DNA from: Halorientalis sp. LT38
Lineage (GTDB): Archaea > Halobacteriota > Halobacteria > Halobacteriales > Haloarculaceae
Reading direction: 5' to 3'
Length of the DNA stretch: 64,000 bases
Assembly (NCBI RefSeq): GCF_037031225.1
Contig: NZ_JAYEZN010000001.1
Location: 3,348,001-3,412,000, forward strand
Part shown: piece by piece, positions 32,503 to 38,965 of the stretch
Layout of the letters: every line of letters begins with the position of its first letter
Numbering within the stretch: the stretch's first letter is position 1
Translations under genes and position numbers: made by a program
The notes under the pieces: model-generated
The model's input: the letters and a program-made list of their open reading frames with translations, nothing else
Databases searched by the model: none
Told to the model about the DNA's origin: nothing

Positions 32503-33465
32503 TTAGCGGACGACGATGGCGCCGCGCCCGTTGTTGGGGCGGTCGGTCCGGCAGTAGTAGCGGTAGACGCCGGGTTCGTCCAGCGTGACGATGTAGGTGT
32601 GGCTGGCGTCCCGGACCGACACGCTGTCCTCGAAGTTGCCGTCCTCCCAGGACACGTCGTGTGCGCCGCCGCGACCGGTCCAGTCGAACACGACCTGCGT
32701 CCCGCGATCGACGAGGATCGCCACGGGGTCGAACGAGTGGTTCGTGCCGTTGGGGCTCGGCGCGCCGACGGTGACGTCGACCGACCCCTGCCCCCGCATG
32801 TCGTCCAGTCGGCCGCTGTACTCCTCGTAGCCGTCGAGCCAGTCGTCGACCGACGTGTAGCCGCTCAGCGTCTGCTGTTCCTCTACGATGACCGCCCCGC
32901 GCATTCCCAGCGCGCCGCCGTGGTTCGTACACCGGTAGAGGTAGACGCCCGGTTCCTCGAAGGTCACCTGGTAGGTCTTGCCCGAGGACGCGACCGGCGA
33001 GCCGCTGTCGAATAGCTGGTCGCGCTCGCGCACGTTGTGGGCGCTGCTGCCGTCGACCCACTGCCACTGGACGGCCGTCCCTTCGGTGACCCGGATCGCC
33101 GCCGGGGCGAACGCGAAGTTCCCGCCGCTGGTGTCGTCGGCGCCGACGTCCACCGTGATGTCCGGCGTCCCCGTCGCATCCTGGATCGTGCCGTCGTAGT
33201 TCTTGGTGTTCGAGAGCCAGTCGTCGACGGCTTCCTGCGGGTTCTGCACTTCCTCCGGCGCGTCGGGCTCCTCGACCGTCTGTTGCGGTTCGGTCGTCTC
33301 GTTCGTCCCCTCGTCCGTCGCCGTCTCGGTCTGCTGGGGTTCGTCGTCCTCGTCCGGATCGCCGTCCCCGTTCCCCGCTCCGTCGTCGGAACAGCCCGCG
33401 ACGCCGACCGCCGTCGCCGCGACCGCCGTCCGGAGAAACGCTCGCCGCTTCGATCGCCGTGTCAT
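32503..33465 (-). CDS. Two-domain halocyanin-like lipoprotein, second copper site degenerate
   Basis: The 320-residue protein has a Tat signal (MTRRSKRRAFLRTAVAA) and lipobox Cys25, then an acidic linker and two halocyanin domains (about 78-196 and 203-320). Domain 1 has all four blue-copper ligands: His143, Cys179, His182, Met188. In domain 2, His269 and Cys305 remain, but the positions for the second His and the Met hold Asp308 and Arg314. Domain 1 should carry electrons on the outer face of the membrane, possibly to a terminal oxidase; domain 2 probably does not bind type 1 copper. Confidence 0.88.
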   Translation of the reverse strand: MTRRSKRRAFLRTAVAATAVGVAGCSDDGAGNGDGDPDEDDEPQQTETATDEGTNETTEPQQTVEEPDAPEEVQNPQEAVDDWLSNTKNYDGTIQDATGTPDITVDVGADDTSGGNFAFAPAAIRVTEGTAVQWQWVDGSSAHNVRERDQLFDSGSPVASSGKTYQVTFEEPGVYLYRCTNHGGALGMRGAVIVEEQQTLSGYTSVDDWLDGYEEYSGRLDDMRGQGSVDVTVGAPSPNGTNHSFDPVAILVDRGTQVVFDWTGRGGAHDVSWEDGNFEDSVSVRDASHTYIVTLDEPGVYRYYCRTDRPNNGRGAIVVR

Positions 33466-33600: not shown

Positions 33601-33996
33601 TCAGACGGACTGGGTCAACCGGGCCGCGCTGTCCAGGACTGCCCGGAGGTGTTCGGACTCGACGGTCAACCGGATTCGCTCCTCGGCGTCGTCGACGGCG
33701 ATCAATCCCGCGGCCGAGAGCTTCTGGAGGTGGACGTGTCTGAACGAGACGCGGACCCGTTCGTTCGACCGGTCCGATCCGTTCGTCCGCTCGCCTGCGC
33801 GCTCCCGGGCGACGGTCCGCTCTACGGCCGTCGGCAGCGAGAGCTGCCCGTCTGCCTCCCACAGGACGGAGAGCAGGCGAACCCGACGAGGCGAATCGAG
33901 CGCCGAGAACACGTCGGTGACCTCCCGCTCCACCGAGTGGCCCTTGTTCACAGCGGCGATGGCATCGACAGCGTGGGTGTTCTTCGGATCTGACAC
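33601..33996 (-). CDS. Winged-helix protein, haloarchaeal HTH family
   Basis: The 131-residue protein has FSALDSPRRVRLLSVLWEADGQLSLPTAVE and FRHVHLQKLSAAGLIAVDDAEERIRLT, the two halves of a winged helix like that of the 6291-6680 protein. The C-terminus (about 112-131) is a short helix, perhaps for dimerisation. It is probably a transcription regulator of unknown target. It sits upstream of the repeat-protein/phosphate transporter pair but is transcribed away from it, so a regulatory link is possible but unproven. Confidence 0.75.
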   Translation of the reverse strand: MSDPKNTHAVDAIAAVNKGHSVEREVTDVFSALDSPRRVRLLSVLWEADGQLSLPTAVERTVARERAGERTNGSDRSNERVRVSFRHVHLQKLSAAGLIAVDDAEERIRLTVESEHLRAVLDSAARLTQSV

Positions 33997-34211
33997 GGTT
34001 CAGCGTACGGGGCGAAACTGATTGAGGGCCCTGCCTGACTGGTCTTGTACACAGGTAGTTACCAGTCACTTCAGCGGCAGACGCTCGCACGAATTTACCA
34101 AGGTACTTGAGCCGAGCGCCATTCTACTACCGTATACGTGGTTTCTCTCCCATCTGACGCACAGCGAAGCACTCGCGCGAACGAACGCACCGACTCCATC
34201 GAGGTGGACCA

Positions 34212-35057
34212 GTGAACCCGAATCGCGTCGACTCGATCGTCGACCTCACGTACGGTCTGTTGATCGCCATCTCGGTGGGCCTGATCGTGGTCGCCGGGAA
34301 CAACGTCGGGCTGGCGTTCGGGTTCGGCGTCCTGATCTCCTACATCATCCACGTCGGCTGGAAGATGGCTCGGTTCGACCCCGACTGGATGACCACGGCC
34401 GTCAAGGAGACCGTCGAGGAAACCGTCGACGAGACGGTCGAGAAGACGGTCGGTGAAACCGTCGAGAAGACCGTGGACGAAACCGTCGAGGCGAAGGTCG
34501 GCGAAACGGTCGAGAAGACGGTCGGTGAAACCGTCGAGAAGACCGTCGACGAGACCGTCGAGGCGAAGGTCGGCGAAACGGTCGAGAAGACGGTCGGGGA
34601 GACGGTCGAGAAGACCGTCGACGAGAAGGTCAGCGAGACGGTCGAAGAGACGATGGAGGAGGCCGTCGGCGAGTCCGTGGAGGAGAAAGTCGGTGAGACG
34701 GTCGAGGAGACGGTCGAAGAGACCGTCGGCGAAACCGTCGAGGAAACGGTCGAGGAGACCGTCGAAGAGACGGTCGGTGAAACGGTCGAGGAGAAGGTGG
34801 GCGAGACGGTCGAGGAAAAGGTGGGCGAAACGGTCGAGGAATCGGTGGAGGAGGCGGTCGACGAGACGGTCGAAGAGAAAGTCGGCGAAACCGTCGAGGA
34901 GACGGTCGAAGAGACGGTGGAGGAGACCGTCGAAGAGACGCTGGAGGAACAGCTCGAGGACCAGGACGTGGAACCGGACGGAGAAGCGAACGGCGACGAC
35001 GATGCGGACGCGGAGGAGGCCGAACGCACCGGGGACGATTCGAAGGGGGACGAGTGA
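34212..35057 (+). CDS. Membrane-anchored protein with 47 uninterrupted tetrapeptide repeats
   Basis: The 281-residue protein starts at a GTG. Two helices (about residues 12-28 and 31-50) anchor it. From Val64 to Leu248 every fourth residue is hydrophobic without one skip: 47 units, mostly E-T-V-E, E-K-V-G, K-T-V-G or D-E-T-V. Residues 81-104 repeat exactly as 105-128. A disordered acidic tail follows (about 250-281). The stop overlaps the start of the PiT gene by one base, so the two are co-translated. I do not recognise a family. A long rod, helical or otherwise, next to the transporter is the simplest reading. Confidence 0.8.
   Translation: MNPNRVDSIVDLTYGLLIAISVGLIVVAGNNVGLAFGFGVLISYIIHVGWKMARFDPDWMTTAVKETVEETVDETVEKTVGETVEKTVDETVEAKVGETVEKTVGETVEKTVDETVEAKVGETVEKTVGETVEKTVDEKVSETVEETMEEAVGESVEEKVGETVEETVEETVGETVEETVEETVEETVGETVEEKVGETVEEKVGETVEESVEEAVDETVEEKVGETVEETVEETVEETVEETLEEQLEDQDVEPDGEANGDDDADAEEAERTGDDSKGDE
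34401..34955 (+). repeat. Tandem 12-bp/72-bp coding repeat
   Basis: The DNA encoding the tetrad region repeats with a 12-base unit (gagacggtcgaa-like) and a longer 72-base unit that recurs once exactly at the protein level. Synonymous codons vary (GTC/GTG, GAG/GAA, ACG/ACC), which suggests the protein pattern is selected and not just recent slippage. The reverse strand is also open here only because of the repeat. Confidence 0.75.
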
Positions 35058-36235
35058 TGGCCGAGGTACTCCTCGTCGTCGGCGTCGTGGTAGCGATGTT
35101 CGTGGCGTACAACATCGGCGGCTCGACGACCGGGCCGGCGTTCGGGCCGGCCGTGGGCGCGAAAGCCATCTCGAAACCGGTCGCCGCGGGGCTGATGGGT
35201 CTCTTTTTCTTCGTCGGCGCCTGGACCATCGGCCGCAACGTCGTGACGAAACTCGGCACCGAACTGGTCGTCGATCCCGGGGTGTTCACCCTCGAATCGT
35301 CCATCGCGGTGCTCTTTTTCATCGGCATCGCGCTGCTGGTGGGCAACATCTTCGGCGTCCCGGCGTCGACGTCGATGACAGCCGTGGGCGCGATCGCCGG
35401 GCTCGGACTCGCGGGCAACGTGCTCGATCTGGCCGTCATGGGCGAGATCGTCATCTGGTGGGTCGTCTCGCCGATCGTCGGCTTCTGGGTGTCGCTGATC
35501 ATCGGCCGGTACTTCTACGCGCGATTCAACCGGATGGTGGCGATGGAACGCAGCACGGGCCCGCTACTGGACGTCGACCGCTCGGGCCCGATCCCGATCC
35601 CGCGCGTCCACGAGACGACCAACCGCCGGGAACTCGTCGGGACGATCACCGTCGTCGCGATCGGCTGTCTGATGGCGTTCAGCTCCGGGACCTCGAATAT
35701 CGCGAACGCCGTCGCGCCGCTTGTCGGCAGCGGCGAACTGGCGATGGACCCGGCGATCATCCTCGGCGGGATCGCCGTCACGATCGGGGCGTTCACGATC
35801 GCGCGCCGGACCCTGGACACGATGGGCAGCGACATCACGGAACTGCCGCTGACGGCGGCGATCGTCGTCGCATCGGTCAGTTCCGCGCTCGTCGTCTTCC
35901 TCTCGATGCTCGGGATCCCCGCGAGCTTCGTCATCATCGCGACCATGTCGATCGTCGGGCTCGGCTGGGGGCGTGCGACACGTCCCGTGACCGTCCCAGA
36001 GGCGGTTCGCAAAGAGAAGGCCCCGCCCGTCACGATCGACGCGCTGGCCGCGGACGAACCCGGCGAGGAACTGCCCCCGATCGGCGAGGAGGACCCGGAC
36101 AAGATCCCGCAGGCCTCGGACCTGTTCAACCCCGCGACGACCGCGCGAGTCGTCCTGATGCAGAACGTCGTGCCGGCCATCGCGACGCTGGGCGCCTATC
36201 TCACTTTCCGGTTCGTCCCGATCTTCGGGATCTGA
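35057..36235 (+). CDS. pitA: PiT-family inorganic phosphate transporter
   Basis: The 392-residue membrane protein has the duplicated PiT signatures: AYNIGGSTTGPAFGPAVGAKA near the N-terminus and AFSSGTSNIANAVAPLVGSG near residues 214-233. It imports phosphate with a cation. A central cytoplasmic loop (about 165-195) and a soluble stretch before the last helix (PEAVRKEKAPPVTID...DKIPQASDLF, about 310-365) complete it. It starts at an ATG overlapping the stop codon of the tetrapeptide-repeat protein. PiT genes often pair with a PhoU-like regulator; here the repeat protein takes that position. Confidence 0.9.
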   Translation: MAEVLLVVGVVVAMFVAYNIGGSTTGPAFGPAVGAKAISKPVAAGLMGLFFFVGAWTIGRNVVTKLGTELVVDPGVFTLESSIAVLFFIGIALLVGNIFGVPASTSMTAVGAIAGLGLAGNVLDLAVMGEIVIWWVVSPIVGFWVSLIIGRYFYARFNRMVAMERSTGPLLDVDRSGPIPIPRVHETTNRRELVGTITVVAIGCLMAFSSGTSNIANAVAPLVGSGELAMDPAIILGGIAVTIGAFTIARRTLDTMGSDITELPLTAAIVVASVSSALVVFLSMLGIPASFVIIATMSIVGLGWGRATRPVTVPEAVRKEKAPPVTIDALAADEPGEELPPIGEEDPDKIPQASDLFNPATTARVVLMQNVVPAIATLGAYLTFRFVPIFGI

Positions 36236-36290: not shown

Positions 36291-38900
36291 CTACCGGAAC
36301 CGACCGAACAGCCGGTAGTCCTCGTCGGGCGTGTACTCGCGGAACGCGAGGCTGTTGGCCAGTACGGAGACGCTCGAGAACGCCATCGCCCCGGCAGCGA
36401 GGACGGGCTGGAGCAGGCCCAGTGAGGCCAGCGGGATCATCGCCGTGTTGTACCCCAGCGCCCAGAACAGGTTCTGTTTGATCTTCGACAGCGTGCCCTC
36501 GGAGACGCGGATGGCCTTGAGCACGTCCGCCGGATCGGAGCGCATCAGGGTCACGTCGGCGGCCTCGATGGCCACGTCAGTGCCGCTCCCGATGGCGCAA
36601 CCGACGAACGCCGCGGCCAGGGCCGGCGCGTCGTTGACGCCGTCGCCGACCATCATCGCCCGGTCGCCGTCGGCCTGGATCGCATCGATTGCGTCGGCCT
36701 TGTCCTCGGGCAGGACGCCCGCGCGGACGTTGGCCGGGTCGATGCCGACCGTCTCGGCCACGGCCTCGGCGGTCCGCTGGTTGTCGCCGGTGATCATGTG
36801 GACGGTCAGCCCGCGCTCTCGCAGGGCCGAGACGGCTGCCTTCGCCGATTCCTTGACGGTGTCGGCCGTCGCGACGACGCCGACGAGCTCGCCGTCGACG
36901 GCAACCAGCATCGCCGTCTTGCCCTCCGTCTCGAGCCGTTCCATGGCGTCGGTCGCCGCCGAGGGGTCGACGCCCTCGTTCTCCAGCAGGCGGCGGTTCC
37001 CCACGAGCACCTCGCCGTACTCCGTCCCCGCCCGGACGCCCTGTCCGGGGACGTTCTCGAACTCCTCGGGGTCGGCGGGGTCGAGGTCGCGCTCGCGGGC
37101 GCCGTCGACGATGGCTTCGGCCAGCGGGTGTTCGCTCGCGCGCTCGGCGCTCGCTGCGGCGGAGAGGACGAACGACTCGTCGACCTCGGGCCGGAGTTCG
37201 CCACCATCCGCCGCCGTGCCGCCGTCGGGTGCCGCCGATCCGACGACTTCGACGTCGGTCAACTGCATCTCGCCTTCGGTGAGCGTCCCGGTCTTGTCGA
37301 AGACGACGGTCTCGACGTCGCGGACGCGCTCCAGCACGTCGCCGCCCTTGAAGAGGACGCCGTTGCGCGCGCCGATGGAGGTCCCGACCATCGTCGCCGC
37401 GGGCGTGGCCAGCCCCAGTGCGCAGGGGCAGGCGATCAGGACGGCGCTGGCGAAGACGATCACCGCGAACTCGAAGACCGAGATCGCACCGCCGGCCGCC
37501 ACGGGCCCGCCGGCGACCAGCCCCCACAGCGGGAGGGCATCGACGATCCCTGCCAGCACCTCGGGGAACGCGTACCAGACGCCCGCCCAGAACAGCGCGT
37601 TCAGGATGACCGCGGGGACGAAGTACGCGCTGATGCGGTCGGCGACGTTCTGGATGTCGGGCTGGCGGCTCTGGGCGTCTTTCACCATCGAGACGATCTG
37701 CTGGATCGCCGTCTCCGAGCCGACCTTCGTGGCCTCGACCACGAGCACGCCGTTCTGGTTGACCGTCGACCCGACCACGTCGTCGCCCTCGCTTTTCTCG
37801 ACGGGCACGGATTCGCCGGTCACCATCGACTCGTCGACCGCGCTGGAGCCGTCGACGACCGCCCCGTCAGTCGGGATCTTCTCGCCCGGTCGGACCTTCA
37901 TCCGGTCGCCGACCTCGATCTCCTCGACGGGCACCTCGCGCTCGTTGCCCGCCTCGTCGACCAGCGTCGCGGTGTCGGCCTGGAGTTCGAGCAACTGGCG
38001 GATGGCCTCGCCGGCCTGCCCCTTCGAGCGGGCCTCCAGGTAGTTACCCAGGGTGATGAAGGTCAGGATCAGCGCCGCGGTGTCGAAGTACAGCCCTTCG
38101 GAGGCGACCAGACTGAGCAGGACCGTGAGCGAGTAGACGTACGCCGTCGACGACCCGAGCGCGATCAGCACGTCCATGTTGGCCGACCGGTTCTTCACCA
38201 GCGCCGTGTAGCTGTTCTCGTAGAACTCTCGCCCGAGGACGACCTGCACCGGCGTCGCGAGCAGGAAGGCGATCCAGCCCGTGCCGATCCCCAGCACCGA
38301 CTCCGGCATCGATTCGGGGGCCAGCAACTCGACGGCCATCATCGCGATCAGCGGCAGCGACAGCGCCGCGCCGAACAGGACGAGCCGCTTCTGCCGGTCG
38401 ATTTCGGCCTCCCGGGCGAGGTCCTGCCGGTCCCGGTCGGACTGGCCTGCACTGTCTCCACCCTCCTCGCCGCCCTCGTCGGGCCGGACCGGCGTGTAGC
38501 CCGCCTCCTCGATGGCGTCGTACAGCGTCGCGCGATCGGTGTCGGCGGGGTTGTACGTCACGCTCGCCTCGTCGGTCGCGTAGTTGACGTCGGCCTCGAT
38601 CACTCCCGGACGGCTCTCCAGCGCCGTCTCGTTGGTCTCCGCGCAGTTCGCACACGACATGTCCGTGATCGGGATGGTGATCGACTCGCGGACCACCCCG
38701 TAGCCGGCGTCTTCGACGGCCCCGTAGATCTCGGCGAGCGAGGTCGTCTCGGGATCGTAGGTCACCGACCCCTCGTCGGTGGCGAAGTTCGCGTCGATCT
38801 CCCGGACGCCGTCGAGGGCCGCCAGCGAGTCCTCGATCGTCCCCGCGCAGTTGGCGCAGCTCATCCCCGTCAGCTCCAGCCGCGTGCGACGCTCGGTCAT
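36291..38900 (-). CDS. copA: Copper-exporting P1B-type ATPase
   Basis: The protein has 869 residues from ATG 38900. Two HMA copper-binding domains come first (GMSCANC from residue 12 and DMSCANC near residue 80). They are followed by membrane helices and the transport motif [10 protein letters not shown], the phosphorylation site DKTGTLTEG and the hinge [14 protein letters not shown] and paired HMA domains mark Cu(I) export from the cytoplasm. The TRASH-domain regulator gene lies just upstream on the same strand, so the pair is likely a copper-responsive unit. Its length and all catalytic residues are normal. Confidence 0.92.
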
Positions 38901-38965
38901 AGTAGAGTAGTATAGGGCCCACACGTTCAAGCGGTTTGCCCTTGTTTCACCGAACTCCGCAGGCC

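Follow-up and report, generated by a model that had tools for sequence, protein, structure and literature searches.

PiT genes outside the haloarchaea commonly have a neighbor encoding a cytosolic, helical PhoU-like protein, and operon-encoded accessory proteins of transporters are a known general kind. The PiT superfamily (PF01384, TC 2.A.20) also includes the CysP sulfate permease. Phosphate transport is reported to require the signature Asp residues of PiT proteins, in place of which CysP has G and N (PMC5840216). Among long helical repeats, right-handed coiled coils (hendecad, pentadecad, and the YadA stalk at 3.8) have a hydrophobic spacing above 3.6 residues, and 4.0 residues per turn lies beyond the range accessible to coiled coils, for which 3.8 is cited as the extreme example (PMC4786415). 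Single alpha-helix (SAH) domains are long, charged, Glu-rich helices, and the 11-mer repeats of alpha-synuclein, perilipin, and LEA proteins are amphipathic repeats of Thr, Val, Lys, and Glu.

Here, we analyzed two overlapping genes in a 64,000-nucleotide stretch of the genome of Halorientalis sp. LT38, referred to as the window (Table 1). Public annotation lists the pair as a "hypothetical protein" adjoining an "inorganic phosphate transporter," and the closest relatives of the source genome were H. marina, persicus, regularis, and pallida (Halorientalis-like). The first gene product resembles PhoU-like/DUF47 proteins (PF01865) in having a PiT-superfamily gene neighbor and a mainly helical character, but it differs in carrying a membrane hairpin of its own, in having a tetrad rod where those proteins have a helical PhoU-type bundle, and in partnering a CysP-like transporter. 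This transporter belongs to the same superfamily as CysP and has undergone the same loss of the signature Asp residues, but scored below the equivalog cut-off. The repeat tail shares the spacing above 3.6 with right-handed coiled coils, but keeps a value of exactly 4.0 over up to 81 units. Like SAH domains it would form a long, charged, Glu-rich helix, from which it differs by its net charge (−71 over 221 residues), a scarcity of basic residues, and a regular Val/Thr stripe. The residue types of the 11-mer repeats are also present, but the tail is acidic, is fixed to the membrane by the hairpin, and lacks an 11-residue period.

Table 1. Features of the gene pair in the window
Feature	Position	Strand	Remarks
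Tetrad-repeat membrane protein gene	34212..35057	+	281 aa; GTG start, TGA stop
Possible Shine-Dalgarno sequence GAGGTG	34201..34206	+	5 bases 5′ of the GTG start; by inspection
Two-helix membrane hairpin, residues 4–54	34221..34373	+	Conserved module; alignment and AlphaFold helices
47-unit tetrad array, residues 62–250	34395..34961	+	E-T-V-E / K-T-V-G type
Acidic low-complexity C-terminus, residues 251–281 (last 31)	34962..35054	+	pLDDT mostly <50
Possible transporter Shine-Dalgarno sequence AAGGGGG	35043..35049	+	Within the 3′ end of the repeat gene; by inspection
TGATG stop/start overlap of repeat gene and transporter gene	35055..35059	+	TGA 35055–35057 and ATG 35057–35059 share one base; possible translational coupling
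PiT-superfamily transporter gene	35057..36235	+	CysP-like; 392 aa; PF01384

The initial annotation, which was made from the letters alone, had reported a hydrophobic residue at every fourth position from Val64 to Leu248 without a slip, together with the one-base overlap between the stop codon and the PiT start. Both observations were exact. The 47 positions 64, 68 ... 248 comprised 44 Val, 2 Leu, and 1 Met, and Met60 lengthened the run to 48, while the longest run in 2,000 shuffles of residues 61–252 was 9, with a mean of 3.4. Within tetrads such as ETVE, KTVG, and EKVG, a second-order period of 8 was present, with ETVE alternating with xTVG/D (self-identity of 0.73 at lag 8, 0.58 at lag 4, and 0.15 at lag 11). 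The hydrophobic period of the tail was 4.00, with negligible power at 3.5, 3.6, 3.67, and 3.75. As had been claimed, this is not a coiled-coil period, which is about 3.5–3.9, and it falls outside the accessible range (PMC4786415).

The same register was found in the relatives whose repeat gene overlaps the transporter gene. A single unbroken register starting from residue 64 was present in 44/44 distinct relatives of this kind, with 11–66 units. Over the 1,796 tetrads of these tails, the register position was occupied by V 1,703, L 69, M 15, and I 9 times, and 402 synonymous changes away from GTC were counted at this position. The synonymous and hydrophobic-only variation supports selection on the protein, in line with the initial annotation; slippage in multiples of 12 bases alone would also preserve the register. 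Across the hairpin family the tail ranged from 4–6 up to 81 tetrads, and the short members of 117–134 aa had just 4–6 tetrads followed by a heptad-like end. Unit number differed by 9–10 between gene pairs whose hairpins were the same and whose PiT proteins were 98% identical, as in Haladaptatus-type loci with 21 versus 31 tetrads. Repeat number drifts, and tail length is freely variable and not conserved.

AlphaFold predictions were made for single chains and cannot show oligomers. For the window protein, helices were predicted at residues 3–28 and 30–54 (block pLDDT mostly 88–89), followed by a helix at 57–119, beyond which confidence was low, with tail pLDDT values mostly 30–60. The protein of the second family described below, which has a less repetitive tail, gave a hairpin helix at residues 6–30 and an unbroken helix at 35–157, with a mean pLDDT of 81.5. 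On a normal helix each tetrad shifts the hydrophobic position by 40 degrees, and the Val stripe would geometrically circle the rod every nine units.

Using the N-terminal 76 residues of the window protein as the query, homologues were found in 250 of the 392 genomes of the haloarchaeal order, covering 71 of 95 genera and mostly in single copy. In the alignment, D7, D11, G15, G33, A35, G37, G39, H47, W50, K51, and M52 of the hairpin were invariant, as were D56, P57, W59, and M60 after it. The hairpin was as conserved as the transporter (mean identity 0.855 vs. 0.858). A profile search of the phylum gave no hairpin-family match outside the haloarchaeal order among the matches listed, and a PDB profile search with the hairpin returned 0 matches. 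Pfam searches with the hairpins of both families yielded nothing, or VirB3 at E 0.04, and Foldseek searches with models of both families gave nothing at E ≤ 0.001. With the whole protein, the CdrL middle region (CdrL_M, PF24252) scored 28.9 bits without any passing stretch (146–146 only), and it was rejected as a composition artefact together with the low-complexity matches to DUF445, YpjP, GvpQ, and other Pfam/NCBIfam models. The repeat protein is not an artefact and, by the searches made, not a known family. Open-licence papers yielded no account of a comparable gene pair, and in the literature searched neither the tetrad repeat on a membrane anchor nor its tie to CysP-like PiT proteins appears to have been described.

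Among 162 repeat-gene copies in the fetched loci, 56 overlapped the start of a downstream PiT gene by 1, 4, or 8 bases, 27 lay upstream of PiT on the same strand with a gap of 1–300 bp, and 40 were divergent at less than 800 bp. Since these loci had been picked by similarity, 56 carrier genomes were drawn at random. In 43 of them, a repeat gene lay no more than 1.5 kb from a PiT gene, while the chance expectation is well under 1% (a rough value assuming about six PiT genes among about 3,700). The initial annotation had named conserved pairing despite changing repeat number as support for its proposal, and this was borne out. It had also named random positions without a PiT link as evidence to the contrary, and such an arrangement was found in a minority, since 13/56 random carriers, Halorubrum-type genomes among them, had no copy near PiT. 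In loci without a nearby PiT gene, no alternative constant partner was found; the neighbors there changed from lineage to lineage and included DUF63, TatD, methyltransferase, and RimK genes. In the Halorubrum-type loci L121, L193, L199, L202, L203, and L217, the repeat gene was conserved away from PiT and adjoined TatD/RimK-type genes. Some genomes carried a second, unlinked copy (e.g., L095).

The presence of the two genes was also correlated. In the 392 genomes, 225 had both the repeat gene and a close PiT, 25 only the repeat gene, 17 only the close PiT, and 125 neither; the E-value threshold for a close PiT was chosen after the data were seen, and the results were alike from 1e−138 to 1e−145. 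The odds ratio was 66 and the z value, stratified by genus only, was 7.9. Co-gain and co-loss with one PiT clade were seen within genera (e.g., g6, g12, g25, g37, g46, g65, and g90). Two of the 17 genomes with only a close PiT were checked. In one (G184, L236) the gene was cut by a contig end, and in the other (G004, L235) a gene of a second family adjoined PiT. No partner was found for the clade PiT genes of genomes G280 and G298.

The remote relative in G004 led to this second hairpin family, which occurs in tens of genomes (the 56 matches at E ≤ 0.001 include weak cross-matches to the first family). The hairpins of the two families were about 20%–28% identical, and hhalign of their profiles gave a probability of 84.5% with E 7e−6. 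The second-family gene adjoined PiT in 18 of the 19 loci read, 16 times downstream of it on the same strand at 44–102 bp and twice on the opposite strand. Its tails consisted of V/A-E-E-R type tetrads, with a hydrophobic period of 3.97–3.99 in the four tails tested. Nearly all partnered PiT proteins of both families fell into a single clade of the PiT tree (123 rows, support 99), and a few further PiTs linked to the second family were more distant. Gene order differed between the subclades of this clade. The pairing of the repeat gene with PiT is real, and since it persists through reordering and this much divergence, function is the best explanation.

The initial annotation had called the pair a membrane-anchored tetrad-repeat protein coupled to a phosphate transporter. 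The anchor, the repeat, and the coupling to a PiT-superfamily protein stood, with the transporter scoring 144 bits against PF01384 (gathering cut-off 33.7). The term "phosphate" is doubtful because both Asp residues of the phosphate signature are lost, with the motifs GGSTTGPA and GTSNIANA versus GANDVANS and GANDVANA in TmPiT (6L85), and because CysP is the nearest curated model. The CysP equivalog NF053884 was by far the best NCBIfam model, although its 158 bits fell short of the cut-off of 400; the PitA model reached 16 bits. The four other PF01384 paralogues of the source genome were likewise most like CysP. The transporter is unlikely to be a phosphate carrier of the classical kind, and judging from these motifs and models, sulfate or another oxyanion is a more likely substrate than phosphate. 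Loci with a divergent-clade PiT also hold a CitMHS/Na_sulph_symp transporter with TrkA_C domains (L097:2603–4465), and such an anion-transport cluster would be in keeping with a sulfate-type substrate. Genes resembling those for universal stress proteins adjoin other PiT-superfamily paralogues (L230:4290–4724, L232:4309–4764, L234:5353–5862, and L080:5277–5702; Pfam-confirmed in L080, by sequence resemblance in the other three), which suggests that those PiT clades may have other cytosolic partners.

We propose, with a probability of roughly 0.6, that the repeat protein is a clade-specific accessory subunit, dedicated to a CysP-like oxyanion transporter of the PiT superfamily, and that it extends an acidic helical rod into the cytoplasm. 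R5, K51, and R54 near the ends of the hairpin and its very short outer loop suggest that it lies in the membrane with both ends cytoplasmic, and its small-residue face G33xA35xG37xG39 may pack against the transporter. Beyond the membrane, the tail would continue as a single long alpha-helical rod of strongly acidic character, with the narrow Val stripe completing one turn around it in about nine tetrads. A rod of this kind would lend itself to clustering transporter complexes side by side or to binding a cytosolic partner multivalently, and the overlapping stop and start codons may provide matched synthesis of both proteins. Stabilizing, assembling, or clustering the transporter would be the likeliest role, followed by gating or regulating its activity. 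In 4 M salt, the acidic tail seems unlikely to exert electrostatic steering over a long range. More tentatively, and with the odds against it, the protein could represent an undescribed class of transporter subunit in which a long acidic helix, built on an exact 4.0-residue hydrophobic repeat, is attached to the hairpin. Helices of neighboring complexes would then associate in a manner other than a coiled coil, or the rod would scaffold a cytosolic factor, and CysP-like transporters would in this way be clustered under near-saturated salt conditions, with selection on the repeat rule and not on length.

The drift in unit number between loci that share the same hairpin and have 98%-identical PiT proteins, and the short members with just 4–6 tetrads before a heptad-like end, speak for an account in which only the hairpin works. 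The tail would then be a simple-sequence stretch expanded by, and prone to, slippage, with its acidic, Val-spaced composition tolerated rather than used. We consider this unlikely, given the register unbroken in 44/44 relatives, the 402 synonymous V variants, and the solely hydrophobic replacements; the second family reaches a 4.0 period with other residues (A/V/E/R), which slippage of a single ancestral DNA unit does not explain. The same drift bears on the proposal in the initial annotation of a length gauge, and on a rigid spacer of fixed reach from the membrane to a cytosolic structure. A 188-residue rod would be about 280 Å long if fully helical, but overlapping-gene relatives had 11 to 66 tetrads, and because repeat number changes so much between near-identical loci, this idea is largely refuted and very hard to maintain.

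The repeat protein might instead take the place that a PhoU-like/DUF47 protein has beside PiT, as the initial annotation had suggested, and in haloarchaea sense phosphate status. PiT genes elsewhere commonly have such a neighbor, PhoU_div (PF01865) was present in 9/33 genomes, and in the source genome no PhoU-like gene adjoined any PF01384 gene, PhoU_div being far from all of them. However, the repeat protein matched neither PF01865 nor another PhoU model at E ≤ 1, the tail contains no folded sensor domain, and both Asp residues of the phosphate signature are absent from the partner PiT (PMC5840216), so that this role is improbable. Equally improbable is a protein that acts independently of the transporter, for example in the envelope or in osmotic stress, and is merely co-inherited with it. 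The 13/56 carriers without a copy near PiT and the second unlinked copies agree with independence, but the pairing has been kept through inversions, changes of gene order, and divergence down to about 20%–28% identity, and the two genes are gained and lost together inside genera.

An unannotated, widespread haloarchaeal protein family is now linked to a transporter family. If a dedicated subunit is the correct reading, many haloarchaeal "inorganic phosphate transporter" genes may encode carriers of another oxyanion for which a subunit is still missing. The tails also offer a natural set of 4 to 81 exact 4.0-residue units as a test of helix folding and association at high salt.

A sigma-70 promoter scan, with a model that does not cover haloarchaeal promoters, found none at the locus. 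The antisense ORFs across the array were the repeat read on the reverse strand, and further repeat-like matches in the source genome were of low complexity, the C2 one lying close to a contig end (L233). A DUF7344 gene, possibly encoding a winged-helix regulator, is divergent from the repeat gene in the window (33601–33996, −). The pair is flanked by a tandem cupredoxin gene (32503–33465, −) and an HMA-type copper ATPase gene (36291–38930, −); flanking neighbors differed in the fetched Halorientalis relatives, and thus no conserved link of the copper genes was seen. The repeat gene of G035 appears broken, with a 75-residue frame (L137:6619–6846), and is still divergent from a PiT gene.
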